From Dactylosporangium vinaceum (GTDB lineage Bacteria > Actinomycetota > Actinomycetes > Mycobacteriales > Micromonosporaceae), in contig NZ_CP061913.1 of assembly GCF_019904175.1 (NCBI RefSeq), positions 434,001 to 498,000 on the forward strand: 64,000 bases of DNA, written 5' to 3'. How positions within the stretch are numbered: position 1 is the first letter of the stretch; every line of letters starts with the position of its first letter. The position numbers and the translations under genes were made by a program. Positions 3-25,057 of the stretch are shown here, piece by piece. The notes under the pieces are model-generated. The model did no database searches, had not been told where the DNA came from, and saw nothing but the letters and a program-made list of their open reading frames with translations.

Positions 3-3000
3 GCGGAGCGTCAGGACGCCATCGCCGGTGAGGCGTCTGCGGGGGTACTGCGCGCGGCTGCCGAATCGGCCACGCTCGACGCCCACGTGCGGCACTACCG
101 GTGGCGGGCCGCGCAGCTCGTGCACGAACGCGCGGCGGCGGCGGCCCGTGCGGCCGAGTCGCTCGTCGCCGAGCGGCGGCACGCGCACCGGTCATGGCAG
201 CTGGTGCCGACGCTGATCCGGCACGTCGAGCAGGCACAGCGCCTGGAAGTCGCGCGCCGCCGGCAGGAGCAGGCCGAGGCCGGCGCGGCGCCGCTGCGTC
301 GGGAACGGGCGGACGCGGCGGCGGTGTTGCTCGCGGTGTTGCGCAACGCGGCGGACGAGCTCGATGCGCGAATGGACACGTTCGCGCACGAGGCGTCGTC
401 TGCGCGTGAGCGGCAGGTGTCCGCCCGCTCGCTCGCCGACTCGCTGCGCGGGCGGCTCGGGAGCCTGGATGCGCAGCAGCGCACGCTCGAGGCGCAGGTC
501 GGCGCGTTCAACAGTGACCTGGCCGCCGCGGCCGGGCACCTCGGCGACGATGACCTCGATGTCGCGCTGGCCAAGGCGCAGCGGGCCGAAGCGGCGGCCG
601 CGCACACGATCGAACACGAACTGCCCGCCGACGCTGCCCGCTTGGACACCGATCGGCGCGCGTACGAACGCGATCGCGCGGAGGCGCAGACAACGCTCAC
701 GGAGCTGCTGCGGGACAAGGCGGTGCTCGACGCCGAGCGCGGCCCGCTCCTGGCCGAGATCGAGGCGCTCGGCACCGATCCCCGGTTGACGGCGCTGGCC
801 GAGCAGGACCGCGTCGACCCGATCGCGTCGCAGCGGTTCCTGACCGACCTGCTGACCGAGGCGGTCATCACCGCCGATCGGCACCGCATCCAGCTCGCCG
901 TCGCGGACGCCGAGGACGATCGGGCGGTGCAGGCCCTGGCCTCGCCGCGCGGCCTGCTGCCGGCGGCCCTGGACCTGGCCCGGGCGGCGGACGTGCTCGC
1001 CGCGGCCCGGATTCCGGCGAGCACCGGGTGGCATTTCCTGGCCGACTCGGTGTCGCCCTCCGCCTGGCCGGCCGTGATCGCCGACGCGCCGCACCTCGTG
1101 GGCGGGTTGCTGGTGCACGATCCGGACGACCTGGAGCGGGCGCGCACCGAGCTCGTGGCGGCGCAGCTGTTCGCGACTTCGGCCATTCAGGTCGCGACGA
1201 CCGCCGACCTACGGTCCATTGTGGACGCCGACCCGGGCAAATCGTCCGGGTTCGTGCTGCCGCCGGCCTCCGCGATGTACGACCGGACCGCGGCGGCATC
1301 CGAGAGCGACAGGCGCAATCGCGGGCGGGACGAGCGCAACCAGCGCGTGCACGAGCTGCTCGAAATGCGCGACCGCGACATCCGGCTGCGCGGTCAGCTG
1401 CTCGATCTCGTCGCGCACTGTCCATCCGGGCACCGCGAGCATCTCGACGCTGCCCATTCGAACATCGAAGAGGCGCTGGCCGCGGTGCAGGAGCGGCTGG
1501 CCGGGCTGCAGGAGACCCGGCTGCTGCTCGACGAGCGGGCCGCGCTGCTCGAGCACACCCGCCGTGACCTGGCCGAACGACGCCGTGTGCTCACCATCCG
1601 CATCGCCGCGCTGGCCGATCTGACCCGGCGGGCACCTGACGTTGCGCAAATGCGCACCGAGCTGTCCGCGCTGCCCACTCTGCGCGCGCAGCTGCACGCG
1701 GAGATGGCCACGGCCGAGGAGGCGGAGCGCACCGCGGCGACCGCGGCGAACCGCCTGGCGGCCGATGCCGAGCGGGCCGGGTCGACTGTGCGCGAGTACA
1801 AGATCCGGTGTGAGGAGTTGCAGCGCATCGCCTCCGAGATCGTTGTCACGGCGCGGCCCAACCTGACCGAGGCGACGAACGCGTATCAGGCGGCGCACGA
1901 CGCGTACGTGCGGCAGACGTCCGGGTCCGCGCTGGAGGCGACGATCGCCGAGATCACGAGCCGGCTGGCCGCACTCGACGAGGAGATCCAGCAGTTCGCG
2001 GCGGCCGAGCGCGCGACCGCGCAGACACTGCTCGACGAGTCCGACCCGGCGGCGGTACGGCGGGCGATCGAGCAGGCCGAACACGACTTCCTGACCGCCC
2101 AGCGCGACGCCACGCTGGCCGGGGCGGCGCTGTCGAATGCGCACGCGGCGCTGCAGGCCTGTGCACCGTCGACGCTCGATCTGGCGGTCGATGACGACGA
2201 CGTCGTCCGCCTGGCCGAGCAGGCGCAGCGCGGGCTCGACGAGTCGCGCACGAACGAACAGGCCGCACGCGAGCGGGCGAGCACCGCCGAGGCCGCGGCG
2301 GTCACCGCTCGCCGCCGCGCCGACGACTTCCAGCAGCTTGTCACCGACCTCACCGAGGACACCGACGCGATCGCCGGTGCGGCTGACGTCGCCGCGTTCG
2401 CCGGCGATGTCGACGCCGCCCGCGAGTCGGCGCGCGCGGCCCGCCGGGCGTTGCAGGCGGCCGACCGCGCGGTCAACGCGGCGCGCAACCGGCTCAACGC
2501 CGAGGCGCACCGCATCGACAGGTGGGCGCTCGACGAGCGGTTCGCCACGGTGAGCCCCGAGGTTCGCGACCGGTTCCGCGAGGGCCGCCTCGACTTCGAC
2601 ACGACCGAGCAGCTGGCCGCGCAGCTCCTGACCTACCGCCACGGGCTGGCCGGCGAGCTCGACGCCGTCGAGAAGGACAAGCATCTCGTCGTGACGGCGC
2701 TGTGCGCGGAGGTGCGCGAGGGCCTCAAGACCCTGCAACGCGCGCAGCACCATGCGCAGCTGCCGCCGGGCCTGGCCGACCACTTGCGCAACCGCCGCTT
2801 CCTGGACGTCGGCCCGCGGTCCAGTGTGGACACCAGTGACGCCACGCTGCGCAGCCGGGTGGAGCGGCTGGTGGACAAGCTGGTCGCCGGCAAGGACCCG
2901 ATCCCGGACGGCCTCACCCTGGCGTGGGAGGCGATCGCCGCCGTCGTGGGCCGCGGCAATTTCGTCGCCCGTGTGCTCAAGCCCTCCACCGAGCTGACCG

Positions 3001-3413
3001 ATGACCGCCAGCCGGTCGAGCTCATGAGCAAGTGGAGCGGCGGTGAGAAGGTGACAATCGGGCTGCTGCTGTTCTGCATGCTGGCCCGCCTGCGCGCCGC
3101 GAACCGGGGCGGTGACGTGCCGGGCCTGGGAGTACTGCCGATGGACAATCCTTTGGGAACGGCGAACTACGTGGCCTTCCTGGATCTGCAGCGAAGAGTC
3201 GCCGCCGCCAACGGCATCCAGCTGATCTTCCTGTCGGGCCTGGGCGACATGCGCGCGGTGGGCCGCTTCCCCAACGTCGTACGCATGCGCAACACGCACA
3301 ACCGCGGCCGCAACTACGCACGTGTGATGGACCGCGAGCTGAACGAGGACCAGATCCTGGAGAGCATCACGACGGCCAGGTTGACCTTTCCGGTACAGGG
3401 GACGCTGCTGTGA
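3..3413 (+). CDS. SMC/Wadjet-like coiled-coil ATPase (5' truncated)
   Basis: The reading frame is open from the first bases, so the N-terminus and Walker A lie upstream; 1136 residues are visible. Long Ala/Glu/Arg-rich coiled coils flank a globular hinge-like segment at about visible residues 260-440. The C-terminal head has an ABC-signature-like SGGEKVT motif and then a Walker B-like strand ending in PMDNPLGTAN. SMC, RecN and MukB-type ATPases carry DE at this point, but here the residue after Asp is Asn. The layout resembles the SMC-like subunit of condensin/Wadjet (JetC) complexes, but no JetA, JetB or JetD homologue is visible downstream. The stop overlaps the GNAT start by 4 nt, so the two are probably co-translated. 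SMC-like ATPase is well supported; Wadjet membership is only possible. Confidence 0.8.
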   Translation, partial: AERQDAIAGEASAGVLRAAAESATLDAHVRHYRWRAAQLVHERAAAAARAAESLVAERRHAHRSWQLVPTLIRHVEQAQRLEVARRRQEQAEAGAAPLRRERADAAAVLLAVLRNAADELDARMDTFAHEASSARERQVSARSLADSLRGRLGSLDAQQRTLEAQVGAFNSDLAAAAGHLGDDDLDVALAKAQRAEAAAAHTIEHELPADAARLDTDRRAYERDRAEAQTTLTELLRDKAVLDAERGPLLAEIEALGTDPRLTALAEQDRVDPIASQRFLTDLLTEAVITADRHRIQLAVADAEDDRAVQALASPRGLLPAALDLARAADVLAAARIPASTGWHFLADSVSPSAWPAVIADAPHLVGGLLVHDPDDLERARTELVAAQLFATSAIQVATTADLRSIVDADPGKSSGFVLPPASAMYDRTAAASESDRRNRGRDERNQRVHELLEMRDRDIRLRGQLLDLVAHCPSGHREHLDAAHSNIEEALAAVQERLAGLQETRLLLDERAALLEHTRRDLAERRRVLTIRIAALADLTRRAPDVAQMRTELSALPTLRAQLHAEMATAEEAERTAATAANRLAADAERAGSTVREYKIRCEELQRIASEIVVTARPNLTEATNAYQAAHDAYVRQTSGSALEATIAEITSRLAALDEEIQQFAAAERATAQTLLDESDPAAVRRAIEQAEHDFLTAQRDATLAGAALSNAHAALQACAPSTLDLAVDDDDVVRLAEQAQRGLDESRTNEQAARERASTAEAAAVTARRRADDFQQLVTDLTEDTDAIAGAADVAAFAGDVDAARESARAARRALQAADRAVNAARNRLNAEAHRIDRWALDERFATVSPEVRDRFREGRLDFDTTEQLAAQLLTYRHGLAGELDAVEKDKHLVVTALCAEVREGLKTLQRAQHHAQLPPGLADHLRNRRFLDVGPRSSVDTSDATLRSRVERLVDKLVAGKDPIPDGLTLAWEAIAAVVGRGNFVARVLKPSTELTDDRQPVELMSKWSGGEKVTIGLLLFCMLARLRAANRGGDVPGLGVLPMDNPLGTANYVAFLDLQRRVAAANGIQLIFLSGLGDMRAVGRFPNVVRMRNTHNRGRNYARVMDRELNEDQILESITTARLTFPVQGTLL

Positions 3414-5432: not shown

Positions 5433-6716
5433 CTAGGCGGGGACGCGGTGCTGGTCGAGGTGGGTCATGACTGCCTCGTTGGCTTCCCAGCCGTCGGGGA
5501 ACTTCACGATCTCGTTCAGGTAGACGCGGCCGGTTGACGGGTGGGCGTTCAGGAGTTCGGTGATGCCGGCTCGGGCTACCGCTATGCAGGCGTGCCGGTG
5601 GCGGGAGGTCAGGACGCAGAGGCGGCCGGCTTCCAGGTGGAACGCCGTGGCGTCCCTGCGGCCGGACAGTGGATGCCAGATGACCGTGACGTCGTACTCG
5701 CGGCCCTGGAGGCGGTTGGCTGTGTCGACGGTGATGCCCGAGTCGGCGGGTAGGTGCTGGCGCACGGCGGCGGCCTGGTCTCGGTGGGCTGTGCCTATGG
5801 CGATTCGGTCCGGCGTCACCGGGACCGGCTCCGGGGAGCGCTCTGAGATCGCTGTTGCGCCGCGCTCCACCAAGCGCTGGGCAACCGCTGCGCACGCCCT
5901 CGCTACCTCGGCGTCGGTTCGCATGCTGTGCCGGGCCGGGAGCTCGTGCAGGGCCCAGCCGGTCTCGGCGGCCAGTTCGAGCGTCTTGTCCACCGGTGAC
6001 GATCCGAAGGCGTGGGTGGTGAAGGTCAGGCTGCGGTCGGATCGGGTGGTGCCCGCGGTGAAGCCGGTGAAGGGGTAGAAGGCGTCGGATACGACAGGGG
6101 CGGCTGTGGCCGGCAGGCGCCAGGAGACCGGCAGGCGGTGCTGGGGGATGTTCGGGTTGTGGCGCAGGAGCACTGCCACGGCGCTGAGTTGCGGGTCCCA
6201 GGACAGGCCGGCCCAGCGCTCGGTGTCCACTGTGGAGAACGGGTCCAGCTGGCCGGGGTCGCCGACGAAGAGGGTGCGGCTGAAGCGGCCGGCTATCTGC
6301 AGGAGGGCGTCCGAGCGCATCTGGTACGCCTCGTCGACGATGGCGCACGGCCACTCGCCCGACGTCACCGTTGACCACTTCGCGGCGGTGCCGATGACGA
6401 TCGCGGAGCCGGCCAGGCCCGCCACCGCGCTGTCGACAGTGACGTTGCCGTGTCGGGCGATCCTCGGGGCCGCGGCATACCCTTGCGCTGACAGCCGGCC
6501 TATGGGCGACCGAGGGACAGCGCGAGCCAGGTTGACGATCAGGTCGTCCACCTGCTCGTTCGTCTGGGCGACGATTGCCAGGGGCTCGCCGTGTGCAGCG
6601 ATGTGCTCCGCGGCTCGGACTACAAGCGTGGACTTCCCGGCTCCCGGCGGGGAGTCGACCACCACACCCGAGGACCGGGCCAGGTCCGACATGACGGCGG
6701 GGAGAATGTCGGTCAT
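5433..6716 (-). CDS. SF1 helicase/ATPase, last gene of the nuclease operon
   Basis: The protein has 427 residues from ATG 6716. Motif I is SPPGAGKST (residues 22-30), motif II is CAIVDEAYQ (about 120), motif III is LFVGDPGQLDPF (about 160), motif V is TANRLQGREYD and motif VI is VLTSRHRHACI. The order is that of UPF1/DNA2-like SF1B helicases, but it is compact: there is no large N-terminal domain or nuclease fusion. ATG 6716 overlaps the previous stop as ATGA; the frame could run on to 6782, but that part is the shadow of the upstream gene. The operon context suggests it acts on DNA with the Cas4-like nuclease encoded two genes upstream. Helicase fold is clear; function is inferred. Confidence 0.85.
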   Translation of the reverse strand: MTDILPAVMSDLARSSGVVVDSPPGAGKSTLVVRAAEHIAAHGEPLAIVAQTNEQVDDLIVNLARAVPRSPIGRLSAQGYAAAPRIARHGNVTVDSAVAGLAGSAIVIGTAAKWSTVTSGEWPCAIVDEAYQMRSDALLQIAGRFSRTLFVGDPGQLDPFSTVDTERWAGLSWDPQLSAVAVLLRHNPNIPQHRLPVSWRLPATAAPVVSDAFYPFTGFTAGTTRSDRSLTFTTHAFGSSPVDKTLELAAETGWALHELPARHSMRTDAEVARACAAVAQRLVERGATAISERSPEPVPVTPDRIAIGTAHRDQAAAVRQHLPADSGITVDTANRLQGREYDVTVIWHPLSGRRDATAFHLEAGRLCVLTSRHRHACIAVARAGITELLNAHPSTGRVYLNEIVKFPDGWEANEAVMTHLDQHRVPA

Positions 6717-8173
6717 GACCAGGTCTCCACTGCGTCCTCTTCCGTCGGTTCCGGGGGCGGGGGCGGCCCGCCGTGGGTCCACGGGGTTTCGTCAACCGGC
6801 GGGAAGTTGCCGCCGGGCTGGTAGGCGGTCGAGACGGTGCTGTACGTGACCCGCTCGCCCAGCTCCGGGACGCTGCCCGGGGCCGGGGTCAGCGCCCGGC
6901 CCATGCCGCCGGTCAGCTCCAGGGTGATGTCGGTGCCGTCGATCGAGACGATGCGAGCGGTCTGCGCGCGGCGAGACGGGGACTGGAGGTCGGCGCCCAC
7001 CGAGAGCTTGAGCGGGTCCGTCGTGCGGACTGTCACGTGTGGACGAAGCTTGCGGCGGGGGCCGGATGCGTCAAGGCGGGTCGGGTCGGCGGCTACCACG
7101 TCGCCGGCGAAGGCCTCGCCGGCCAGGCGGAACTCGGCCATGACGAGCGGGTCGTCGAGCGCGCGCTGGGCGTCGTACTGGGACTGGGCCCGTTCCAGGC
7201 GGTTCAGGCGCTTCGCGGCGGCTACCGCGCTGTCGCGGCGGGGCTGGGGTAGCGCACTGCCGGCCTGGAGGTACTCGATGTAGTTGGTGTACGTGTCGCG
7301 GTCGTCGGACCAGCGTTCCAGGACGGTGGCGCCGGGCGGCAGCGCGCGCAGCAGGCCGATGCCGCGCCACATCAGGGTCCAGGTCGGGTCGAGCTGGCTG
7401 CGCAGCGCCGCGGTCAGGTGCTCCAGCGCCTTCTCGCGGGCGAAGGAGTCGGCGTCGGTCTTGTCGTAGCGCTTCATGGCCGGGGCCAGCGTGGCGGCGT
7501 CGAACGTCGGGTCCGTGGTGGGGCCGACCGGGGGCCAGCGCTCCGCGTCCTCGGCCTCGCGGGCGGCGTCGAACGGGTCGGGTCCGAACCAGGCCATGAG
7601 CGCGGCCAGGTTGGCGTCCTCCATGGCGCTCTGACCGGTGGCCCAGTGGGCGGTGAGCACGGAGGTCATGGCCAGCGCCAGGGAGGAGCCCGGATACTCG
7701 GCCTGCTCGGCGAAGAAGGTGAGCCACTTGCCCAGCGTGGGGACCACGGGCTTGACGGCGTACTCGCCCCAGGTCCGGCGGAGCCTGGTCGAGCGGCCGA
7801 ACAGGCGCAGGAAGCCTACGCCGCCCTCGTTGGGGACCAGGAGCTGCGGGGCGTCGGCGTACCGGCGCCGGCCGCGGGCCTCCTCCTGGTAACGCTTGAA
7901 GCTGTCCACATAGGACACGAGAATGTGGCCCAGCGCGGCGGCGAACTGGAAGCGTTGGTCGCGGTTTCTCGGCTGCGGGACGATGAGGAGGTGCGGCTCG
8001 TCCGGGTTGTCGCCAAGCATTGCGGCCAGGGGAGCGTTGGCCTCGCCGGCCAGGGTCAGAGGGATGAAGACCAGCGGGCGGTCGGCTATGTGGACGTGGC
8101 GGACAGTGGTGATGGGCTGGGCGGCCTCCGATCGGACGGCCAGGGCGCGGGCCAGGGCGGTGAGCGTGGTCAT
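6713..8173 (-). CDS. unknown 486-aa protein in the nuclease-helicase operon
   Basis: From ATG 8173 (ATGA overlap with the nuclease gene) to TGA 6713 (ATGA overlap with the helicase gene). No family is recognised. Residues 1-250 look globular and alpha/beta, with a Trp/Phe-rich stretch around WLTFFAEQAEYPGSSLALAM. Residues about 330-400 contain helices rich in Arg and Leu. A C-terminal beta-rich segment (RIVSIDGTDITLEL, then GERVTYSTVS) could be a small barrel like those inserted in SF1B helicases. The tail is a Pro/Glu run (GGPPPPPEPTEEDAVETW), probably disordered. A helicase accessory subunit is an inference from coupling and the barrel-like segment. The longer open frame to 9310 is the antiparallel-frame shadow of the nuclease gene. 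Confidence 0.75.
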   Translation of the reverse strand: MTTLTALARALAVRSEAAQPITTVRHVHIADRPLVFIPLTLAGEANAPLAAMLGDNPDEPHLLIVPQPRNRDQRFQFAAALGHILVSYVDSFKRYQEEARGRRRYADAPQLLVPNEGGVGFLRLFGRSTRLRRTWGEYAVKPVVPTLGKWLTFFAEQAEYPGSSLALAMTSVLTAHWATGQSAMEDANLAALMAWFGPDPFDAAREAEDAERWPPVGPTTDPTFDAATLAPAMKRYDKTDADSFAREKALEHLTAALRSQLDPTWTLMWRGIGLLRALPPGATVLERWSDDRDTYTNYIEYLQAGSALPQPRRDSAVAAAKRLNRLERAQSQYDAQRALDDPLVMAEFRLAGEAFAGDVVAADPTRLDASGPRRKLRPHVTVRTTDPLKLSVGADLQSPSRRAQTARIVSIDGTDITLELTGGMGRALTPAPGSVPELGERVTYSTVSTAYQPGGNFPPVDETPWTHGGPPPPPEPTEEDAVETWS

Positions 8174-9297
8174 CGGGCCGGGCCCAGGGACTCTTCGCGG
8201 AGGCGTAGGGCGGCCTGCAGTACCGACGAAGCCTCGGTCTGTTCTATCGAAGGCAGGAGCTTGCCCTCGGCCAGCTGCAGCGCAGTCTCGACCCACTCGA
8301 TGCTGCCCAGCTCCTCGGCCACCGACTTGCCCAGGGCGTGGGTGGTGCCGCGGGCCTCGTGGCGGCAGAAGTACGACATCTCGCACGTGGAGAGGCACTC
8401 CGGGGAGTAGCGCGCCGGGATGTCCTCCAGCGCGGCGCAGAGCTCGCCCTTCGGACGGGTGGGGTGGCCGTCGCGGTTGGGGGCCAGGTCGAAGGTGATG
8501 TCGGTCGAGACGTTGGCCAGCACCTCGTCGATCCGGGTCATGTTGCGGAGTTGGCGTTTGAGGACGGTGAGCTGGCGGCGTACGTCCAGCTTGGTGGCGA
8601 CCGCCTGATTGGAGAAGTCTTTCGGGCAGACGAGGATCACCCGGTCGGAGACGGTGGCCGGGTCGTGGTCCAGCTCGTGCAGCAGCTGGCGAAGGGCCAG
8701 CACGTATACGCCGGACTGGACGGCGGCCGCGGCCACCTTCCCGCCGTCGGCCTGGCCGTCGATGACCGCGAAGCTCTTGATCTCGATGATGTGGAACGTG
8801 CCCCGGTACTGGAAGGCGATCAGGTCCGGCTCCAGGAACACCTGGCGGCCGCCCACCGGGAGGCGCAGGAGCGGGTGGTCGAACAGCGTTCCGGCGTCGT
8901 CGGAGAACGCCGCGGCGGCGCCCAGGATCTGGCGGGCCCGCTGGTGGCGGACCTCCTGGCTCTCGTTGCCGCCGACGTCCTCCAGGTCGTTGTAGGCGAC
9001 CTCGGGAATTGACAGGTCGAGGACCTCGCGCAGCATCCGGAGCAGCTCCGCGCAGCCGTTGGCCTTGACCTGGTTCACGAAGGCGCGGGTGCGGGTGATG
9101 GCGAATGGCGACTGGCCGTACGGCGGGGGGAAGTCGATGCGGGCGGCGACGGCGCGCTTGTCGACCCCGGCGGCGTCCATGATCGCGCGGCGTCGGCAGC
9201 CTGGGTTGGTGGTCAGGGCGGCGATGGTGCGGGCGTTGTGGGGAAGCGGCGGGGTCGGGCCGCGCAGCTCGGCTAGCCGGTCTTCTGTGCTGTCCAC
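8170..9297 (-). CDS. Cas4/AddB-like PD-(D/E)XK nuclease with Fe-S cysteines
   Basis: A 375-residue RecB-family nuclease. The metal-binding core is E156-P-D158, then E172-I-K174 within FHIIEIKSF, followed by the QxxxY motif Q194-Y198. Three C-terminal cysteines (C301, C305, C311 in CLSTCEMSYFC) plus an N-terminal cysteine (C34 or C82) match the 4Fe-4S arrangement of Cas4 and AddB, which clamps the nuclease domain. About 150 residues precede the core, longer than in Cas4. There is no Cas1, Cas2 or repeat array nearby, so a CRISPR role is unsupported. It overlaps the next gene as ATGA and starts 19 nt after the preceding gene, so it belongs to the four-gene operon. End resection with the operon's helicase is inferred. 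Confidence 0.85.
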   Translation of the reverse strand: MDSTEDRLAELRGPTPPLPHNARTIAALTTNPGCRRRAIMDAAGVDKRAVAARIDFPPPYGQSPFAITRTRAFVNQVKANGCAELLRMLREVLDLSIPEVAYNDLEDVGGNESQEVRHQRARQILGAAAAFSDDAGTLFDHPLLRLPVGGRQVFLEPDLIAFQYRGTFHIIEIKSFAVIDGQADGGKVAAAAVQSGVYVLALRQLLHELDHDPATVSDRVILVCPKDFSNQAVATKLDVRRQLTVLKRQLRNMTRIDEVLANVSTDITFDLAPNRDGHPTRPKGELCAALEDIPARYSPECLSTCEMSYFCRHEARGTTHALGKSVAEELGSIEWVETALQLAEGKLLPSIEQTEASSVLQAALRLREESLGPAR

Positions 9298-9316
9298 GAT
9301 GGTTGGGCACCTCTTC

Positions 9317-10114
9317 TTAGGTACCGGTGTGCGGCACCGCTTTCAGGTTGACGCCGAACAGCTGGCCGGCGTCGTCCAGTTGGGCCCGAGCCCGGGCGGC
9401 GGCCGCTTCGCGGTGCGACCGGTCGATCGGCTCGTGCGTCTCCAGCTCCGCGTTGGCGGCGCGGATGACGGCATGCGGCTTGGCCTGGCCGATCCCGTCC
9501 GCGGCGCCGGGGATGTTTTCCGCGAACAGCCACAGTAGGCGCGCGGTCGCCCGGTCGGTATCGGGAAGGCGGTGGACGTGTTCCGCGATGCTGACCGCGG
9601 CCCGCAGGAAGTCCACCCGTGGGCTCAGGGCCCCGACGATGCGCTGTTCGAGGGGCCAGGTCGAGATGGCGAGCAGGCCGCGCACCGGGGCGAAACGGTC
9701 GGCGGTGAGGGCGGCGCACAGGTAGTACGGGCGCGAGAACGGCGCCGTGCGGAACGATCGCTCCTCGTCGCGGCGCAGGCTGGTGAGCTTCGCGCTGTTG
9801 ATGTCGCCGCCGAAGCAGGCGTTGTAGACCTGGGCGATCAACTTGGGTGCGGCCGCCACGTTGAGGAGCGTCAGGGCGCCGTGGACCTGTTCGCGCAGCG
9901 GCAGCAGCGAACCGCTCTCCCTGGGTGCGTCGGCTTCGCTGCGTGCGTCGGACGGGCCCAGATCGGTGAGCGCCGACTCCCACTCGTCGTGGAGAGCCTG
10001 GTGCTGGGCGCGCAGCATGCGCTCACGCGGCCGGTCCCCGGCCGCCCGGGCCTGCCGGATTTCCGCGAGCAGGGCTGTGAGCTGCTGCTCCAGCTCCTCG
10101 GCGGCGTCGGGCAT
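9317..10114 (-). CDS. unknown coiled-coil protein, first gene of the nuclease operon
   Basis: The protein has 265 residues from ATG 10114 (MPDAAEELEQQLTALL). The N-terminal 55 residues form a heptad-like coiled coil rich in Glu, Leu and Arg, followed by a helical domain with conserved-looking segments (NACFGGDINSAKLTSLRRDE, then RGLLAISTWPLEQRI) and a second helical region ending near LFGVNLKAVPHTGT. No known family is recognised. The frame is open upstream to 10156, but that extension runs into the repeat array, so 10114 is preferred. Its position directly behind a divergent promoter with phased repeats suggests it is the promoter-proximal gene of the set. A sensor, adaptor or DNA-end binding role cannot be told apart. 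Confidence 0.7.
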   Translation of the reverse strand: MPDAAEELEQQLTALLAEIRQARAAGDRPRERMLRAQHQALHDEWESALTDLGPSDARSEADAPRESGSLLPLREQVHGALTLLNVAAAPKLIAQVYNACFGGDINSAKLTSLRRDEERSFRTAPFSRPYYLCAALTADRFAPVRGLLAISTWPLEQRIVGALSPRVDFLRAAVSIAEHVHRLPDTDRATARLLWLFAENIPGAADGIGQAKPHAVIRAANAELETHEPIDRSHREAAAARARAQLDDAGQLFGVNLKAVPHTGT

Positions 10115-12313: not shown

Positions 12314-14034
12314 CAATGGCGCAGATGAAGCTCGCGGTGATGCGCCACGCCTACCGCGGGCAGCGGGCCCAGACCGCCGGCACCGGCGCCGCCATCGGGG
12401 TGGTGCTGGCGGCCGGGACCGCGTACCTCGGGTACCTGAACCCCGACTGGCTGGCCGCCGGGCTCGCCGTGTGGATGCTCGGCTGGATGCTCGGCCCGGT
12501 GTTCATGGGCGGTGGCGATGAGACGCTGCGGCCGGAGTACTTCGCGCTGCTCGGACTCTCGCCCCGCAAGCTCGCGACCGGGCTGCTGGCCGCCTCGTTC
12601 GTGGGTGTCGCCCCGCTCGTCAGCCTCGGGGCGCTGGCCGGGCTCCTGGTGGCCGGGGTCCGGCTCGGCGTGGTCAATGCGCTTGTGGCAGTACCGGCGA
12701 TGGCTCTGCAGCTTGGTGTTTTCGTGCTGCTGTCGAAGATCGCCGTTGCGGTCGTCGGGGTCGCGCTGCGGTCGCGGGCCGGGGCCGTCGCGGCGGGGGT
12801 CGTCAACGGCGTGATCCTGTCGTCGCTCGGCCAGATCTGGGTCTTCATGGTCGCGTTCGGCGTGACCGGGACGCCGGCCGCCGTGTGGTGGGCGCCGTCG
12901 GCCTGGGGCCTGCGCGCGGTGCGCGGTGAGTGGACGTTTCTGCTTGCTCTGGCGGCTCTGGTACTCGTCCTGCTCGCACTGTGGGCCCTGCTGCTCGGTC
13001 GCCGGGCCGGGCGGCCGCGGGTCTCCGGACGCGGACGGCGCCCGATCACCGCCGGCACCGCCGCCGGCGCGGTCGTCGCCAAGGAGCTGCGCACCTGGTC
13101 GCGGGACCTGGTGCGCAATCACCAGCTGGCGTTCGCGCTCGCCTACGGCGTGTGGTTCGCGGCCAGCCCGCTCATCCTCGGCTGGAACGGGATGCTGCCC
13201 TACGCCGGGCCGATCTTCATCGTCATGGCCGCCGGCATGGCATCGAACCTGTACGGGACCGACGGCACAGCGCTGTGGCTCACCGTGATGACGCCGGGCG
13301 CGACGGACGTGCGCGGCCGCCAGCTGGCCTGGGTCACCACGCAGGGCGCCATCGCGATCGTCATCACCGTGGTCTGCACCTCGATCACCGGTGGCCCGTG
13401 GCCGCTGGTCCTGGCCCTGCTCGCCGCGCTGCTCGGCGGGGCGGCCGGCCTGGTGCCGCTCGTCTCCGTGTACGCCCTCGTCCCCGGCACCGACCCCCAC
13501 CGCCGCTCCGGCAACCCGCTGCGCACCAGCGAGGACGAGGGTGGGCTCACCGGCCTGGCGTACCTGATGCTGGCGCTGGTCCTGGTCACCGGCGCTCCGG
13601 CGGGTATCGTCGCGTACTGGCTCGGCTGGCCCGGTGTCGTCGTCGGCCTGGCCACCGGCGCGCTGTGCTACTGGTACTTCGGCCGGCTCGCGGCGCGCCG
13701 TCTCACCTCGCACGGCGACGAACTGCTCGACACCATGCGGACCGGGCGCAAGACGGGTAGGAAGGTCGAGTTCGCTCACCTGTCGAAGGCGCGCAAGAAC
13801 GTCGCCGGCCTCGGGTTCGGCCTCGGCGCCATCCCGCTCTTCCCGCAGGGTGTCGTCGCGCTGCTCTTCCTGGCCGACGGGAAGGCTGACGCGTCGTGGT
13901 TCCTGGCCACGTATCTGCCCGCGCCGTGGAACTATGCGGTGGCGATCGGCTTCGTCCTGCTCGGCCTGACCATGTACGGATCGGCCCTGTGGGCGGTACG
14001 CAAGCGGCCAGAAGCTGACCGCATTACGGCCTAA
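12298..14034 (+). CDS. ABC transporter permease
   Basis: The protein has 578 residues from GTG 12298, chosen because GAAGGGGGAG sits just upstream; the open frame from 12157 is shadow. About 12 hydrophobic segments are visible in two halves (roughly residues 25-240 and 290-570), separated by a basic cytoplasmic linker near residue 235 (GRRAGRPRVSGRGRRP). This two-block layout without an attached ATPase is typical of actinobacterial exporter permeases that pair with the ATPase encoded just before. The cytoplasmic stretch TGRKTGRKVEF precedes the last helices. Function beyond export is unknown. Confidence 0.85.
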   Translation: MAVALTMAQMKLAVMRHAYRGQRAQTAGTGAAIGVVLAAGTAYLGYLNPDWLAAGLAVWMLGWMLGPVFMGGGDETLRPEYFALLGLSPRKLATGLLAASFVGVAPLVSLGALAGLLVAGVRLGVVNALVAVPAMALQLGVFVLLSKIAVAVVGVALRSRAGAVAAGVVNGVILSSLGQIWVFMVAFGVTGTPAAVWWAPSAWGLRAVRGEWTFLLALAALVLVLLALWALLLGRRAGRPRVSGRGRRPITAGTAAGAVVAKELRTWSRDLVRNHQLAFALAYGVWFAASPLILGWNGMLPYAGPIFIVMAAGMASNLYGTDGTALWLTVMTPGATDVRGRQLAWVTTQGAIAIVITVVCTSITGGPWPLVLALLAALLGGAAGLVPLVSVYALVPGTDPHRRSGNPLRTSEDEGGLTGLAYLMLALVLVTGAPAGIVAYWLGWPGVVVGLATGALCYWYFGRLAARRLTSHGDELLDTMRTGRKTGRKVEFAHLSKARKNVAGLGFGLGAIPLFPQGVVALLFLADGKADASWFLATYLPAPWNYAVAIGFVLLGLTMYGSALWAVRKRPEADRITA

Positions 14035-14080
14035 CGTTCTTCCTGTCAGCACCGCCTGCTTCTTGATTGGAATGATCACG

Positions 14081-14596
14081 ATGACCGCTCAGACCCTCAC
14101 CGGCGAGCGCGCCGACCTGCTCGAGACGCTCGGCACGGCCCGCCACTTCCTCCGGCACACCGTGCAGGGCCTCACCGACGAGCAGGCCCGGCTGCGGTCG
14201 ACGGCGAGCGAGCTGACCCTCGGCGGCCTGATCAAGCACGTCGGCGAGATCGAGCTGGGCTGGGCCCGCTTCGTGACCGAGGGCCCGGCCGCCGTGGCGC
14301 CCCCGACCGAGCAGGCCGGCTGGGAGAAGTGGACGAACGACTTCAAGATGCTGCCGGGCGAGACGCTCGAGGCAATCCTGCAGCGGTACTCCGAGATCGC
14401 CGCCGCCACCGACGAGCTGGTCCGCACCGTCGACCTCGACGACTCCCAGGAGCTCCCCCCGGCCCCCTGGTTCCAGCCCGGCGCCCGCCGCTCGGCCCGC
14501 CGCGTCTTCATGCACATCGCCGCGGAGACCGCCCAGCACGCCGGCCACGCCGACATCATCCGCGAGTCGATCGACGGCCAGAAGACCATGGGCTGA
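14081..14596 (+). CDS. DinB/DUF664 family protein
   Basis: The protein has 171 residues from ATG 14081 (in-frame ATG 14072 is also possible). It matches the DinB-like four-helix fold of DUF664: a histidine in the second helix (GGLIKHVGEIELGW) and the closing helix with H-x3-H (ETAQHAGHADIIRESIDG) supply the three metal-binding histidines. In actinobacteria this superfamily includes mycothiol-dependent transferases and isomerases. A perfect 13-bp hairpin terminator follows the stop, so it is a single-gene unit. The precise reaction is not determined. Confidence 0.85.
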   Translation: MTAQTLTGERADLLETLGTARHFLRHTVQGLTDEQARLRSTASELTLGGLIKHVGEIELGWARFVTEGPAAVAPPTEQAGWEKWTNDFKMLPGETLEAILQRYSEIAAATDELVRTVDLDDSQELPPAPWFQPGARRSARRVFMHIAAETAQHAGHADIIRESIDGQKTMG

Positions 14597-14614
14597 CGCT
14601 CGCCGGCTCTGCTC

Positions 14615-14644
14615 AGGGCACCCACACGACGGTGTGGGTGCCCT
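14615..14644. terminator. 13-bp stem, 4-nt loop terminator
   Basis: AGGGCACCCACAC (14615-14627) and GTGTGGGTGCCCT (14632-14644) pair perfectly around the tetraloop GACG, 18 nt after the DUF664 stop. Confidence 0.85.
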
Positions 14645-14812
14645 TCGCTGTCGGCCACTGCCCGCCGGCGTGCGGGTGCCCCGACTGCTTGCCGTTGCGC
14701 AAAGCTGTGTTGCCGCGATAGCACAACGTGCGAAACGAGTGCTGGCGTTCGCAATTGCAGACTGCAATGATGGGATTACACAATGGCACCGGGCTCCGTT
14801 GAGGAGGGCGTC

Positions 14813-14968
14813 ATGGATCGCGACGTGACGCGGCACGACGAGATCAATCCCCAGTTCGCCCGGGACAGCGTCGTCCCGAAGCGAGACCCGAACCGCCTCG
14901 AGCGAGCGGCCGAGCTCCCCATCCGCCGCCACCGCCGCCGCGAGTACCCCCAGCCGGACGAGGCCTGA
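14813..14968 (+). CDS. small basic hypothetical protein
   Basis: A 51-residue ORF beginning MDRDVTRHDEINPQ and ending in a basic run and PQPDEA. A very good Shine-Dalgarno, GAGGAGG, sits 5 nt in front of ATG 14813. Upstream at 14755-14767 is a 13-bp palindrome, TTGCAGACTGCAA, a possible operator. No family is recognised, and coding capacity rests on the ribosome-binding site and composition only. The rest of 14645-15095 holds no other gene I can support. Confidence 0.4.
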   Translation: MDRDVTRHDEINPQFARDSVVPKRDPNRLERAAELPIRRHRRREYPQPDEA

Positions 14969-15095
14969 GCGACAGGCGTTCGCGGTGGCTGCCGCGGACG
15001 CCGTCGCATCCCGGAATGCGTCAGCAGTTCGGCCGGTGATGAGATCGGCCGCGCTCCGATAGCGTGTTGCCGCTTCACCAGGTCTGGGAGGGCGA

Positions 15096-16703
15096 GTGGC
15101 GCGTCGGCGGGGCATCATTGCGCAGATTCAGCGGGCGAACGCGCAGCAGGTTCGGGCGCACCAGCGCGCACAACTGGCCCATGTCAAGCAGCAGCAGGCC
15201 ATGCACCGGGCGGCCGAGCAGGCGATGAAGGCGGCCGAGCGGGCCGCGGTAGCCGACGAGCGGGAACGCAAACGCCTCTACCTCGAAGCCCGGGCGGCCG
15301 AGGTCGCCGCCGACAACGCCGACCTGCAGGCGCAGATTGCGGAGCTCGACGGCGTTCTGCAGGCGACACTGGCCGTGGATGACCACGTGGATCTCGTCCG
15401 GCTCAAGCAGCCGTTCCGGTTTCCGCCGTTCGACCCGGGGCCGCTCGGAGTGCCGCTGCCGCCGCCGGACTGGTCGCGGTTCGAGCCGCCGGCCCCAGCC
15501 GGGCTCAGCAAGATGTTCGGCCGGGCGAAGCACGACCAGCAGCTGGCGGCGGCCCGGTCCCAGTTCCAGCTCGCACAGGCGCAGCACGCCGCCGCGGAGG
15601 CCGATCGGCAGCGTCGGTTGGCCGCCGCCCACGGGGCGTACCAGCAGCAGCGGCAGCAGCGAGAGGTGGAGGTCGCGGCCCAGAACGCGGAGATCGACCG
15701 GTTCGCGGCGGCATTCAAGGCCGGTGAGCCGGAAGCGGTAGTCGACTACTTCGGCATGGTGCTGGCGAACTCGGTCTACCCGGACGACTTCCCGCAGAAC
15801 TACCGGCTGGCCTACGTGCCGGAGTCCTGCCAGCTCGTGGTCGAGTACGAGCTGCCACCGCTGGAGGTCATCCCGGCCGTTCGGGAGTACCGGTACGTCA
15901 AGACCCGCGACGAGGTGACGTCGTCCGCCCGCCCGGCGAAGGAGATCAAGGAGCGGTACACTTCAGTGGTCACCCAGGTGACGCTGCGGACCCTTCACGA
16001 GCTGTTCGAGGCCGACCGCGCCGGCCTCGTCGAGACGATCGCGTTCAACGGCGTCGTCGACACCACCGATCCCCGCACCGGCCAGAGCATCCTGCCCTGC
16101 CTGATCACCGTACGCACGACCGGCGAGCAGTTCCGCGTCCTCAACCTGGCCAAGGTCGACCCCGCCGCCTGCCTGCAGCACCTGAGCGCCGCCGTGTCGA
16201 AGCGGCCCGAGGCACTCGCGCCGGTGCGGCCGGTCCTCGAGTTCGACATGGTCGACAAGCGCTTCGTCGACGAGGTCGACGTGCTGGCCGATCTGGACGA
16301 GCGCCCGAACCTGCTGAAGCTCACCCCCACCGAGTTCGAGTCGCTGATCCAGAACCTGTTCACCCGGATGGGCCTGGACACCAAGCAGACCCGCCCGTCC
16401 CGTGACGGCGGCGTCGACTGCGTGGCGTTCGACCACCGCCCGATCTTCGGCGGCAAGGTCGTCATTCAGGCGAAGAGGTACCGCCACACCGTCGACGTCT
16501 CCGCGGTGCGGGACCTGTTCGGCACGCTGCAGAACGAGGGCGCATCAAAAGGCATCCTGGTCACCACGAGCGGCTACGGGCCGGCGTCCTACGAGTTCGC
16601 CTCGGGCAAGCCGATCGAGCTCATCGACGGCTCCAACCTGCTGTACCTGCTGGCCGAACACGCCGACCTCCGGGCCCGCATCGACCCGGCCGAGCTCGAC
16701 TGA
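15096..16703 (+). CDS. Mrr-like restriction endonuclease with N-terminal coiled coil
   Basis: A 535-residue protein. Residues 1-85 and about 150-210 are Gln/Ala/Arg-rich coiled coil. Residues about 215-400 are a beta-containing middle domain. Residues about 405-535 are a PD-(D/E)XK Mrr-cat domain: the helix LTPTEFESLIQNLFTRMGL, then the metal site in SRDGGVDCVAF and VVIQAKRY, and the downstream helix VSAVRDLFGTLQNEGA. Mrr-type enzymes are type IV restriction nucleases acting on modified DNA, but this C-terminal domain also occurs in proteins of unknown role. The coiled-coil front is unusual for classical Mrr (winged HTH plus nuclease). GTG 15096 follows GGGAGGG. No methyltransferase is adjacent. 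Confidence 0.85.
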   Translation: MARRRGIIAQIQRANAQQVRAHQRAQLAHVKQQQAMHRAAEQAMKAAERAAVADERERKRLYLEARAAEVAADNADLQAQIAELDGVLQATLAVDDHVDLVRLKQPFRFPPFDPGPLGVPLPPPDWSRFEPPAPAGLSKMFGRAKHDQQLAAARSQFQLAQAQHAAAEADRQRRLAAAHGAYQQQRQQREVEVAAQNAEIDRFAAAFKAGEPEAVVDYFGMVLANSVYPDDFPQNYRLAYVPESCQLVVEYELPPLEVIPAVREYRYVKTRDEVTSSARPAKEIKERYTSVVTQVTLRTLHELFEADRAGLVETIAFNGVVDTTDPRTGQSILPCLITVRTTGEQFRVLNLAKVDPAACLQHLSAAVSKRPEALAPVRPVLEFDMVDKRFVDEVDVLADLDERPNLLKLTPTEFESLIQNLFTRMGLDTKQTRPSRDGGVDCVAFDHRPIFGGKVVIQAKRYRHTVDVSAVRDLFGTLQNEGASKGILVTTSGYGPASYEFASGKPIELIDGSNLLYLLAEHADLRARIDPAELD

Positions 16704-16740
16704 CAGCCGAAATTGGGCGGCGGCTTCCGGCCCGGGCGGC

Positions 16741-16752
16741 TAGGTTGCCGGG
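16741..16752 (+). promoter_or_regulatory. leaderless -10 box of the MOSC gene
   Basis: TAGGTT (16741-16746) lies 6 nt before GTG 16753, and no Shine-Dalgarno is present. The spacing is identical to the ABC exporter promoter at 11531. Confidence 0.45.
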
Positions 16753-17415
16753 GTGGGCAGAGTCATTTCCATCAATCTGGCCGTCCCGGAGCCGAACCCG
16801 GCCAAGGACGTCGGCACCACCGGCATCAACAAGCAGCCGGTCGACCGGCTGGTCGAGGTGCGCGCCCCCGGCCCGAAGACAGTCGGGCTGCAAAGCGGAC
16901 TCATCGGCGACCAGATCTTCGACACCGTGAACCACGGCGGTGACGACCAGGCCGTGTACGCGTACGCCCGCGAGGACTACGACTGGTGGCAGGCCCGCCT
17001 GAGCCGCCGCCTCGCCAACGGGCTCTTCGGCGAGAACCTGACCACCGAGGACGTGGACGTCAACGGTGCGGTCATCGGTGAGCGCTGGCGGGTTGGGCCG
17101 AAGCTGGTGCTGCAGCCGACGTTCGGGCGGATTCCGTGTGCGACGTTCCAGTACAAGATGGGCGAGCCGCGCTGGCTGAAGACCTTCACCCGGGCCAACC
17201 GCACCGGCGCCTACCTGCGCGTCCTGGAGCCGGGCGCGATCTGGTCCGGCGACCCGATCACGGTGGAGGACCGCCCGGCGCACGGGGTGACCATCGCGCG
17301 GGCGTTCGCGGCGTACATGACCGCCACCGACCGGATACCGGAGCTGCTCGCCATCGACGGCCTGCCCGACAGCCTGCGCAAGGTCCTCGAGGAGCGCCTG
17401 CCCAAGCGGCGGTAG
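16753..17415 (+). CDS. MOSC domain protein (YiiM-like)
   Basis: A 220-residue protein of the YiiM group of MOSC (molybdenum cofactor sulfurase C-terminal) proteins. Typical features are the HGG-x-D-QAVYAY segment (NHGGDDQAVYAYAREDYDWW), the GENLTT motif near residue 98 and the cysteine-bearing IPCATFQYKMGE near residue 130, the site proposed to handle sulfur or bind molybdenum cofactor. E. coli YiiM reduces N-hydroxylated compounds, and a similar detoxifying role is plausible here. It stands alone, converging on the sigma-factor gene that ends 6 nt away. Confidence 0.88.
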   Translation: MGRVISINLAVPEPNPAKDVGTTGINKQPVDRLVEVRAPGPKTVGLQSGLIGDQIFDTVNHGGDDQAVYAYAREDYDWWQARLSRRLANGLFGENLTTEDVDVNGAVIGERWRVGPKLVLQPTFGRIPCATFQYKMGEPRWLKTFTRANRTGAYLRVLEPGAIWSGDPITVEDRPAHGVTIARAFAAYMTATDRIPELLAIDGLPDSLRKVLEERLPKRR

Positions 17416-17420
17416 CGGAT

Positions 17421-18938: not shown

Positions 18939-19022
18939 CGAAAACTGTTGGCTCTGCCGGGCGGCCGCACTCCTACGGATGTCGCACACCACAGCAACCC
19001 GACGACAACCGAAGGAGACGTC

Positions 19023-21473: not shown

Positions 21474-21481
21474 ACCACGGC

Positions 21482-21515
21482 AACGCCCCGGACATCACGT
21501 GATGTCCGGGGCGTT
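21482..21515. terminator. 34-bp perfect palindrome, bidirectional terminator
   Basis: AACGCCCCGGACATCAC and its exact complement GTGATGTCCGGGGCGTT are directly adjacent, forming a 17-bp stem between the convergent subtilase and PspC genes. Confidence 0.85.
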
Positions 21516-21547
21516 CGCGCCTGTCGACCGGTCGGTCCCTGCCCGGG

Positions 21548-21940: not shown

Positions 21941-24900
21941 TTACGCGACGGCCGCGGCAAACATCGCGAACAGGTCGCCCGACAGCGGTGTTTCTAGCTG
22001 CCACGTGACGGCCATTGGGCGGTCGCCTTCGTGGGTAACGTATGTGGCGGGGCCGAGGAACCAGAAGGCTCGTTCGTCGACGCTGGGTCGCGCAAAGAGC
22101 AGGATCGTTCGCCCCATCGCCGCGTGAGTGCGGTAGCGGCGGCCGGTCGGGCTATCGCTGGCGGTTGTCGACTGACTCTCCCAGTGGATCAATTCCCGAT
22201 TGATTGCATAGTCGCGGTAGCGGGTCGTCGGGGAGAAGCCGCCGCTGGTCTTATCGAGCGTGAAGGCAAGCAGGTCGACGCCGGCCGACTTGGCGTCATA
22301 TACACCTTCGCGCCACTGCGGCGTCTTGGCGTTTACACCCTCGCCGACCGCTGCGAGGATCTCGATGCGGGTGTACTGGCTGTGGACCTGCAATGGGATG
22401 TCCGGAAGCGCCTGATGTTGCATGTGCCGAGGCTCGTCGCCGAGCACCTCAAGCAGCTCGCGAAGCTCGGCCCGGACCTGCGGATGCTCCCACATGAGCT
22501 CGACCGCCGACTGCAGTGAGGCATCCTTCGCAATGACCTGATCGCCGAGGTTGGCAACGAGCATGCGGGCCAGTCGCTGTTCGACGGTGTTCAACTGCCC
22601 GACGTCCGGCCGATTCACCCGATCCAGCAGCGCGCGGTACGCCTCTACCCGCTGCCGGTCGTCGACGTGCTGCATGCGCGCAATGCCGCGGCGCAGCGCC
22701 CGCTCGTGCGGCCCGGCGGCGGCAACGGGCAGGCCGGCCTCCTCCCGCAGGGCCGACCAGCCCCGATCGCCGCTGGTGTAGACATCGGCGAGCTCCAGGC
22801 CGGTCTCGTGGAGATAGGTGGCCAGTGACACTTCGGGCCGAGTCTGGGCGAGGGAGCGCAGCTCGGCGACCTTGGCCGGCCACCGGCTCGGGATGGCCTC
22901 ACGGACACTGCGCAGCACGATGTCGCGAGCGACGCGGTCGAGCTCCATGTGACAGCCCGCCGGCAAGAACGGGAAGCCTTCCTCGACCGCCCGCTCCAGG
23001 TCTCGGCGGCTGCCACCGAGGAGCGCGCGGTACCGCAGATCGAAGCGGAACTCCTGGCGGTGCAGGCCGACGAAGTCGAGTACCGTGCAAACGCTCTTGT
23101 CTTTGGCCGTGCGCAGGCCGCGGCCGAGCTGTTGAAGGAATAGCGTGGCGCTTTCGGTCGGCCGCAGCATGAGCAGCGTGTCGACCTTCGGCACGTCGAG
23201 GCCTTCGTTGAACAGCTCGACCGAGAAGATGACCTGTAGATCGCCGTCCTTGAGCCGGCGGATCGCCGCGTCGCGCTCGACCTGTGGCGTATCACCCCAC
23301 AGCGCGATCGCGTTAATGCCGAGCGCTCGGAACTGCTCGGCCATATAGCGGGCATGTGCGACTGTGACGCAGAACCCGAGGCAGCGCATGGCGGCGACGT
23401 TTGTGACGTGTTGCTGAAGCTGCTGGAAGACGAAGCGCACCCACGACTCGTTGCCGATGTAGACCTCGGCCAACGCTTCCTCGTCGTAACCTTTTCCGCG
23501 TTGCCACGGCACCTTGCTCAGGTCGGTGCCGTCGTGGATGCCGTAGTAGGCGAAGGGCGCCAGCCGGTGCTGCTCGATCGCGTCCCAGAGGCGCAGCTCA
23601 GCGGCGATACGGTCGCCGAACCAGTGCAACAGTTCCCGGCCGTCGGCGCGCTCGGGGGTCGCGGTGAGCCCGAGGAGCTCTCGCGGTGTGAGTGTTTCGA
23701 CGAGCATGCGATAGGAGGGTGCCGCGGCATGGTGAAACTCGTCGATGATAACGACGTCGAAGTGGTCCGGGTCCAAGTGCGGTAAACCGTTGACGCTCAA
23801 GCTCTGTACCGAGGCGAAGACGTGGTCGAACCGCGATGGCCGCTCGCCGCCGACCCACATCTCGCCGAAGGCATGATCGCGCAGCGCGTGACGGAACGTC
23901 GCTCGGCTCTGGTCCAGGATCTGCTTTTGATGCGCGACGAAGAGCAGGCGGGAACGGTGCAGCCGTTCGCGCAGGCGTCCGTAGTCGACAGCCGCCATGA
24001 CGGTCTTGCCCGTACCCGTCGCCGACACCAACAGGTTGCGATGATGGCCGCGCTGCCGCGAAAGCTCGATGAGCTCGAGCATGCGCTCCTGGAACGGCTC
24101 AAGTCGAATCTCGATCGGACTGAGCACGGCGGCTACGCGCTCCTCGGGCCGCTGCATCCGCTCGAGGGCCTCGTCGAATTCGGCCTTCACATACGGAACG
24201 AAGTCGACGCTCTCCCAGTAACTCTCGAAGACCGCCTCGATCTTGCGCAGCACGTCAGGATTGCGAGCACCGGAGACTCGGACGTTCCACTCCATGCCGG
24301 CGACCTGGGCCGAGTGCGTGAGGTTCGATGAGCCCACATACGCCGTGCTGAACGCCGATCGGCGGTGGAAGAGCCAGGCTTTCGCGTGCAGGCGTGTAGT
24401 GGAAAGGTCATACGACACGCGGACGTCGGCGCCGAGCTCGGTTAGCAGTTCGAGCGCCCGGCCCTCGGTCGAGCCGGTGTACGTCGTCGTGAGCACTCGC
24501 AGTTTCCCGCCGCGAGCGCAGTACTGGCGCAGCGCCCCGAGAATCGGATTCAGTCCGGTGACGCGGATGAAGGCCATCACCAGATCGATTCGGTCGGCGG
24601 ACTCAATCTCGGTAAGAATCTGGTGCCCCACCCGAGGCTCGCCGGGCGAGTTCGTCAACAGCGTCGTATCCAGCAGCGGGATACGTGGAAGTCCGGCGTG
24701 GCGGACTGTGCCGTCGGGCCGGTACTCGCCGATGTGATTGAGCATTTCGCCCGGAGCCAGTGGCCATTCCAGGGTGGATTCGCTGTTCGGCAGTCGGGCA
24801 TCGAGGGACTCGAGCAGGCGCTGCGCCACCTCGACGCCTACCGCGACCCGCTCGGTCTCCGGGACCGCGTCGAGGGCCCGCTGGATCTGGCGGGCCAGCA

Positions 24901-25057
24901 GCAGGGCGATGCGGTCGGCGGCGTCGGCCGACCGCATCGCGTTGCGCTTTACAAGGTCCGGGTCAATGCGCGCAAGTCGGGCCTCGAGTGCCTTCGTGAC
25001 GACCGTCTCGTAGAGCCCTGCTGCTAACTCGTCATGCACTAACCCAGTCTGCCTCAC
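21941..25057 (-). CDS. PLD-nuclease / SF2 helicase with DUF3427-type C-terminus
   Basis: A 1038-residue protein. Residues about 130-270 form a PLD-like phosphodiesterase domain (RLHAKAWLFHR, then GSSNLTHSA). Residues about 320-700 are an SF2 helicase: Walker A SATGTGKT, box II IIDEFHH in place of DEAH, motif III LTATP and motif VI QQLGRGLR. The C-terminal 250 residues end in a beta-rich module (GVYDAKSAGVDLLAFTLDK, then WESQSTTASDSPTGRRY) like DUF3427. This three-part layout occurs in stand-alone proteins suspected of defence or DNA restriction. Codon third positions look less G+C-rich than in neighbours, which hints at transfer. Start GTG 25057 is uncertain; an in-frame GTG six codons later is also usable. 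Confidence 0.85.
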   Translation of the reverse strand: MRQTGLVHDELAAGLYETVVTKALEARLARIDPDLVKRNAMRSADAADRIALLLARQIQRALDAVPETERVAVGVEVAQRLLESLDARLPNSESTLEWPLAPGEMLNHIGEYRPDGTVRHAGLPRIPLLDTTLLTNSPGEPRVGHQILTEIESADRIDLVMAFIRVTGLNPILGALRQYCARGGKLRVLTTTYTGSTEGRALELLTELGADVRVSYDLSTTRLHAKAWLFHRRSAFSTAYVGSSNLTHSAQVAGMEWNVRVSGARNPDVLRKIEAVFESYWESVDFVPYVKAEFDEALERMQRPEERVAAVLSPIEIRLEPFQERMLELIELSRQRGHHRNLLVSATGTGKTVMAAVDYGRLRERLHRSRLLFVAHQKQILDQSRATFRHALRDHAFGEMWVGGERPSRFDHVFASVQSLSVNGLPHLDPDHFDVVIIDEFHHAAAPSYRMLVETLTPRELLGLTATPERADGRELLHWFGDRIAAELRLWDAIEQHRLAPFAYYGIHDGTDLSKVPWQRGKGYDEEALAEVYIGNESWVRFVFQQLQQHVTNVAAMRCLGFCVTVAHARYMAEQFRALGINAIALWGDTPQVERDAAIRRLKDGDLQVIFSVELFNEGLDVPKVDTLLMLRPTESATLFLQQLGRGLRTAKDKSVCTVLDFVGLHRQEFRFDLRYRALLGGSRRDLERAVEEGFPFLPAGCHMELDRVARDIVLRSVREAIPSRWPAKVAELRSLAQTRPEVSLATYLHETGLELADVYTSGDRGWSALREEAGLPVAAAGPHERALRRGIARMQHVDDRQRVEAYRALLDRVNRPDVGQLNTVEQRLARMLVANLGDQVIAKDASLQSAVELMWEHPQVRAELRELLEVLGDEPRHMQHQALPDIPLQVHSQYTRIEILAAVGEGVNAKTPQWREGVYDAKSAGVDLLAFTLDKTSGGFSPTTRYRDYAINRELIHWESQSTTASDSPTGRRYRTHAAMGRTILLFARPSVDERAFWFLGPATYVTHEGDRPMAVTWQLETPLSGDLFAMFAAAVA

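Follow-up and report, generated by a model that had tools for sequence, protein, structure and literature searches.

A predicted DNA2-like helicase-nuclease divided over three chains in actinobacteria, with an accessory fourth gene

We analyzed a four-gene operon, A-B-C-D, in a 64,000-nucleotide stretch of the Dactylosporangium vinaceum chromosome (contig NZ_CP061913.1, positions 434,001 to 498,000; this whole stretch is called the window). Three of the genes form a unit, B-C-D, that is common to many actinobacteria, and their proteins are predicted to form a machine that trims DNA ends. Our preferred reading, to which we give a probability of roughly 0.6, is that B, C and D constitute one DNA2-like helicase-nuclease spread over three chains and that A is likely its loader or regulator. 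We read the unit as a split enzyme of the DNA2 type because of the motifs of B, the motor of D and the domain order in a modeled B-C fusion. In the window the four genes form one tight operon (Table 1), with ATGA overlaps between B and C (8170-8173) and between C and D (6713-6716), and the GC content at third codon positions (0.88-0.93) is coding-like in all four. A first-pass annotation of the sequence had reported four minus-strand genes, with a gap of 19 nt at one junction and ATGA overlaps at the other two, and our coordinates agree with this. Because the A-B-C-D order recurs at other loci, the layout is more than chance. The window genome (11.96 Mb) itself holds a second complete copy at 9.93 Mb (L003), with 50-67% identity. 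Over 135 loci the gene sets were ABCD in 76, BCD in 37, D only in 15, BC in five, ABC in one and CD in one; these counts are not a prevalence, since the loci were recruited via C or D, and they include a few places held in two collections (e.g. L037/L077 and L060/L100). Relatives gathered with an alignment of D were the best 80 of 581, and a contig search with C as the query found no relative.

By motif, B is a RecB-family nuclease of the iron-staple (Cas4/AddB/DNA2) type, that is, a predicted iron-sulfur (Fe-S) nuclease. The window protein has the catalytic residues D158, E172-I-K174 and Q194/Y198, together with cysteines C34, C301, C305 and C311 in the ‘iron-staple’ spacing. Four cysteines spanning the nuclease domain are described for AddB, Cas4, DNA2 and Bad (PMC7430649). 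All four cysteines are kept in 117 of 119 B proteins, the remaining two lacking their N-terminus at a contig end; by motif, the RecB-type nuclease with a Cas4/AddB-like cysteine set proposed in the first-pass annotation is borne out. The D158-E172-K174 and Q194/Y198 residues are intact in 104 of these proteins, changed in 13 (six of them from clade 2) and incomplete in two. Alignment A5 (rich in clade 2) had at first suggested a dead nuclease, a reading of B that was dropped after this count. A deep clade of six loci has an altered catalytic motif and retained cysteines, and several of its loci have dapD/dapE-like neighbors, named from sequence.

Protein D is predicted to be an ATP-driven, UPF1-like motor of helicase superfamily 1B (SF1B). 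It carries the motifs GAGKST, DEAYQ, GDPGQL, SWRL, LQGREYD and SRHRH, and passes the Pfam cut-off for AAA_30, AAA_12 and AAA_11; UvrD_C_2 gave only a match below its cut-off (E 0.012). Each of the six motif patterns is present in 128-129 of 129 D sequences. In 128 of the 129, the aligned part reaches the Walker A pattern after 23-25 residues, and there is no space ahead of this pattern for a stalk and barrel of D's own. UPF1-like helicases such as Ighmbp2 have a stalk and barrel before Walker A; in B-C-D, the modeling places what is missing from D, as it appears, at the end of C. Thus the compact SF1B helicase of the first-pass annotation stands as a motor without its own stalk and barrel. The profile searches proposed there identified D as an SF1 helicase, whereas for A, B and C there was neither a PADLOC v2 or NCBIfam match at E up to 1 nor a Pfam match over cut-off; for the window B, these scans covered residues 7-375. 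Nothing meaningful came from comparing profiles of B and C with PDB sequences. D had partial PADLOC matches to MkoA (3.8e-8), MkoC, mad8, PprDinG and Hhe, none of which spans a system.

To read the fold of C, we used the model of a natural B-C fusion (P0121; predicted local distance difference test score, pLDDT, 89), whose domains were mapped to the window C via alignment A5. The order in this model is a Cas4-like nuclease, a DEDD-exonuclease-like domain and a stalk/barrel as in UPF1-type helicases, a fold reading in which no Foldseek E was below 0.001. The N-terminal domain of C (about residues 30-288) is DEDD-exonuclease-like in the model, lacks the first acidic (D-x-E) motif and is predicted to have lost catalysis. 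Residues of about 310-450 are modeled as a helicase stalk and beta-barrel, with Setx, Sen1 and Ighmbp2 as the matching helicases in the fold search, and the Pro-rich tail noted earlier for this 486-residue protein is seen in its sequence. From the model, C is predicted to be a scaffold joining the nuclease B to the motor D, its C-terminus supplying the stalk/barrel found ahead of the motor in other UPF1-like helicases. Fusions among the 26 matches listed were of the B-C type only, the longest of 798 residues; B, C and D were otherwise separate, and among these matches no nuclease and helicase were seen in a single polypeptide.

The closest comparison is with DNA2 and Bad. Bad is a bacterial DNA2-like enzyme, a 5'-3' motor with a single-stranded DNA (ssDNA) endonuclease (PMC7430649). 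The likeness lies in an iron-staple nuclease with four nuclease-spanning cysteines that accompanies an SF1B helicase, and may, as predicted, extend to a stalk/barrel before the motor in C-D. However, B-C-D comprises three chains instead of one, the helicase apparently being cut between barrel and motor, and it has a DEDD-like domain between nuclease and helicase as well as the extra subunit A. The first-pass annotation had proposed a split DNA2/AddAB-like machine, of which the DNA2 part is supported by the motifs, the modeled order, the B-C fusions and the co-occurrence of C and D; AddAB is the poorer comparison, given the helicase profile scores of D. AddAB shares with B-C-D an Fe-S RecB-type nuclease that acts on DNA ends together with an SF1 helicase. 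Its AddA subunit, however, is a helicase of the UvrD-type SF1A kind that carries a nuclease of its own, whereas D is UPF1-like, and B and C are separate genes.

A mechanism can be proposed on this basis. B-C-D would engage DNA ends that are broken or frayed and unwind them, with D pulling a single strand in an ATP-driven manner, C coupling this motor to B, and B cutting the displaced single strand. Movement in the 5'-to-3' direction and ssDNA cleavage would be expected by analogy with DNA2 and Bad. In A-bearing copies such as that of the window, A may load or regulate the complex. We infer that B-C-D functions in repair or defense: the core copy would serve chromosome repair (end resection), and extra A-bearing copies may process foreign or restriction-cut DNA with neighboring defense systems.

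The model of A (pLDDT 92) begins with two long helices over the first 52 residues, in keeping with the coiled coil called earlier. A winged-helix topology at about residues 73-150 was read from the DSSP string and was unconfirmed by fold searches, in which Foldseek and VIA matched mainly the N-terminal helices; 14-3-3 rows in the fold search were taken as chance. A is thus modeled as an accessory winged-helix protein, a predicted DNA-binding loader or regulator. It was found in 16 of 61 genomes of the same family as D. vinaceum, once without C (G020) and once at a far-diverged second locus (G006). Because ABCD makes up 76 of the 135 loci and a far-diverged A-B-C-D exists in L069, where C was detected by profile comparison alone (E 4.6e-8), A is probably old and repeatedly lost. 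One orphan A (L070:8888-9742) lies in a genome without C or D matches.

C and D are tightly linked in their distribution. C occurs in 36 of the 61 family genomes, and D matches below 1e-80 occur in 35 of these 36 and in none of the 25 C-less genomes (Fisher 3e-16). The sole C-bearing genome without such a match, G025, is represented by an assembly of 80% completeness in which the contig stops at C. Weak D matches in five C-less genomes (E 4.7e-7 to 6e-4) were attributed to other SF1 helicases. D is retained even where it stands apart from B-C, as in six genomes (G003, G008, G010, G036, G045 and G048) with 8-63 kb between the two and both on the same strand. Among 296 genomes of the phylum, all 11 with a strong C also have D; G225 and G311 have D matches with a diverged B-C-D in the same order, both of which the C search had missed, and a weak C match in G309 (5.6e-4) was dropped as chance. 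A RhuM-like gene (by eye) stands between C and D in one locus (L044:9530-10579), and a lone 500-residue D-like helicase lies beside an ABC-F-like gene (by eye) in another (L071:7903-9405).

In one genus (g50), which groups with Streptomyces halstedii (L147) in the tree, 79 of 81 genomes have C and 78 have D, and the 15 A-less loci read share one common chromosomal site; B-C-D is a near-universal core locus there. A is present in five of the 81 genomes, exactly those with extra C/D copies (G363, G375, G386, G389 and G402); six A matches adjoin six extra D copies, and none lies by the other 78 D copies. C is a steady part of the core and A is accessory. The first-pass annotation had two unassigned subunits in a four-gene set expected to co-occur. 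This holds for C, which is steadily found with D, but not for A as an equal subunit, since A is optional in the family and absent at the g50 core copies. In G402, equal-scoring extra A-B-C-D copies near both ends of a 10.68-Mb contig (C1; L182 at 13000-31500, and near 10.65 Mb) resemble a terminal inverted repeat. Downstream of a core B-C-D, with one small gene between, is a Prim-Pol gene (L172:12607-13194; Pfam E 1.6e-7), whose family occurs in 13 of 20 g50 loci read and which is a possible functional neighbor.

The strongest rival explanation, to which we give somewhat less than even odds, is that B-C-D is a housekeeping DNA repair machine, with incidental defense neighbors and with A as only a transcription regulator. 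The g50 counts and the single conserved site favor it, as does a B-C-D tree that broadly tracks genera by eye (FastTree, midpoint-rooted); around 80 named loci, moreover, the next commonest family after A-D occurs in only 23. However, neighbors of A-bearing copies exceed same-genome controls in PADLOC matches (at least 7 of 16 loci versus 1 of 16, Fisher 0.037), and diverged copies lie near a type III restriction-modification-like pair and integrase pieces (L218, by eye), together with a UvrD-like helicase.

The A-bearing loci counted with PADLOC matches are the window copy, L036, L044, L054, L174, L189 and L190. Counted by gene, at a PADLOC threshold of 1e-25, at least 13 of 126 A-bearing neighbors (16 loci) matched versus 1 of 122 control genes (P 0.001), the genes of one locus being non-independent. 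The control stretches were at positions chosen by us in 16 genomes (15 A-bearing and G416), with the first two genes of each skipped, and their single match combines an SspA and a DndA row, which were taken to be one protein. Around A-less copies, 6-7 of 126 neighbors (13 loci) matched versus 1 of 122 (P 0.07-0.12); these are 126 of 158 neighbors, with L176, L178, L179 and two genes of L177 excluded. The difference between A-bearing and A-less neighbors was not significant (P 0.24). Because of this, and because the loci of both sets were chosen by hand and are in part related, the enrichment around A-bearing copies is no more than suggestive.

The check for nearby defense genes proposed in the first-pass annotation thus gave a positive answer for several extra copies, including that of the window with its Wadjet III and type IV restriction genes (Table 1). 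JetA3 lies just upstream of the window (L004:7002-8378), on the same side as the JetC3-like gene. The JetC3-like open reading frame lacks the first 346 profile positions and may be interrupted or mis-started. The two type IV (methyl-directed) restriction enzyme-like genes, which differ from each other, lie within 15 kb of the operon. Extra g50 copies stand divergently beside pPIWI-RE genes (L190 and L174 by PADLOC, L183 by clustering) or SbcC/SbcD-like genes (L189, tested; L182, the left of the two G402 copies and the one read there, by clustering and by eye); the extra-copy neighborhoods read in g50 were those outside G375 and G386. Neighbors of A-bearing copies elsewhere include pPIWI-RE, PglW, HmaA, mREase_IV and JetC3. 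A as a marker of all defense-located copies fails, as A-less copies also adjoin JetA2 and JetB2 (two members each), mREase_IV and PD-Lambda-2_C. Downstream of D in two A-less B-C-D loci (L061 and L064) are two genes of about 391-395 and 526-548 residues, likely the JetA2/JetB2 matches, which were not pinned to a locus.

Table 1. Coordinates of the operon and of neighboring defense-related genes in the window
Feature	Position	Strand	Remarks
Gene A, 265 aa	9317..10114	-	N-terminal helices, predicted winged helix, long helices
A/B intergenic gap, 19 nt	9298..9316	-	
Gene B, 375 aa, GTG start	8170..9297	-	RecB-family nuclease by motif
Gene C, 486 aa	6713..8173	-	Predicted DEDD-like domain, stalk/beta-barrel and Pro-rich tail
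Gene D, 427 aa	5433..6716	-	UPF1-like SF1B helicase motor (predicted)
JetC3-like (Wadjet III) gene	87..3413	+	Matches profile positions 347-1444 of 1453 only
Mrr-type (type IV) restriction enzyme	15096..16703	+	
Second type IV restriction enzyme-like gene (mREase_IV)	21941..25039	-	

These neighbors raise a second rival, that A-B-C-D is an antiphage system in which A recognizes DNA that is foreign or damaged and brings the helicase-nuclease onto it for degradation. The genes next to the window copy and other copies, and the way in which A tracks extra copies in g50, are consistent with this. On the other hand, A, B and C have no PADLOC match and D only weak helicase matches, A-bearing copies of Streptosporangiales, Nocardia and Pseudonocardiales form genus clades with genus-specific flanks, and A-bearing and A-less neighborhoods do not differ significantly; we consider this rival rather unlikely. 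Hachiman HamAB is described as a nuclease-helicase pair sensing DNA damage in defense (PMC12278908). PADLOC, however, lists HamB as a DEAD-box helicase, and D is SF1B. The Hachiman nuclease is also a different one.

It is also conceivable that A-B-C-D is a plain member of AddAB, the Cas4 adaptation genes or the TM0106 nuclease-helicases (TIGR03491) that the profile libraries missed. A TM0106-type fusion (L214) has the same domain order of nuclease, DEDD domain (by eye) and helicase, and the helicase half of this fusion is a homolog of D (E 2.6e-17). In contrast, B reached only E 0.005 against L214 and C gave no match, L214 shows the D-x-E motif that C lacks, and the TIGR03491 model recognized neither B nor C; A, B, C and D gave no match to it at E up to 1, and none was found in the window genome (G000). 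With Cas4, the differences are that B has no PADLOC Cas4 match at E up to 1 and that its partner is a helicase. TIGR03491 proteins over cut-off occur in 35 of the 296 phylum genomes and in one of the 11 C-bearing ones (G110), counts that support mutual exclusion with B-C-D neither way. TIGR03491 nuclease genes also adjoin a diverged B-C-D (L217:4059-5753, 564 residues) or lie 7.5 kb from one (L218:892-2445, 517 residues). Because both are present in G110, L217 and L218, B-C-D and TIGR03491 are separate things, and simple membership in a known family is improbable. The L217 and L218 genes have no helicase motifs by eye and are possible partner nucleases. Judged from sequence, B-C-D would work like a DNA2/TM0106 enzyme cut in three, with B and C not recognizable as TM0106 members. 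Least probable of all is that C-D acts on RNA or R-loops, as do Sen1/Senataxin and UPF1, rather than on DNA ends: the barrel of C matches Setx, Sen1 and Ighmbp2, and the neighbor pPIWI-RE is proposed to act at R-loops (PMC3702460), but the steady partner of C is a Cas4/DNA2-type nuclease, fused to it in some genomes, and SbcCD-like neighbors point to DNA ends.

No description of the A-B-C-D set was found in the literature searched, which largely excluded subscription papers, nor in the PADLOC v2 library (2023), from which later defense systems are absent; the earlier statement that no described system has this gene order is upheld to this extent. A bolder reading, which we hold to be less likely than not, is that the DNA2-like B-C-D represents a class of its own among machines that process DNA ends. 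Its UPF1-like helicase would be split between barrel and motor and tethered to an Fe-S nuclease by the dead exonuclease C, and it would be core in Streptomyces-like bacteria and a defense weapon in copies bearing the loader A. The operon is nearly universal and unannotated in what is apparently the genus Streptomyces, a major antibiotic-producing group, and encodes a predicted three-chain DNA2. If this is true, the operon would open a way to study break resection in these bacteria and would provide a naturally divided SF1B helicase for work on mechanism. It would also allow a clear test of whether the presence of A turns a core repair enzyme into a defense module.

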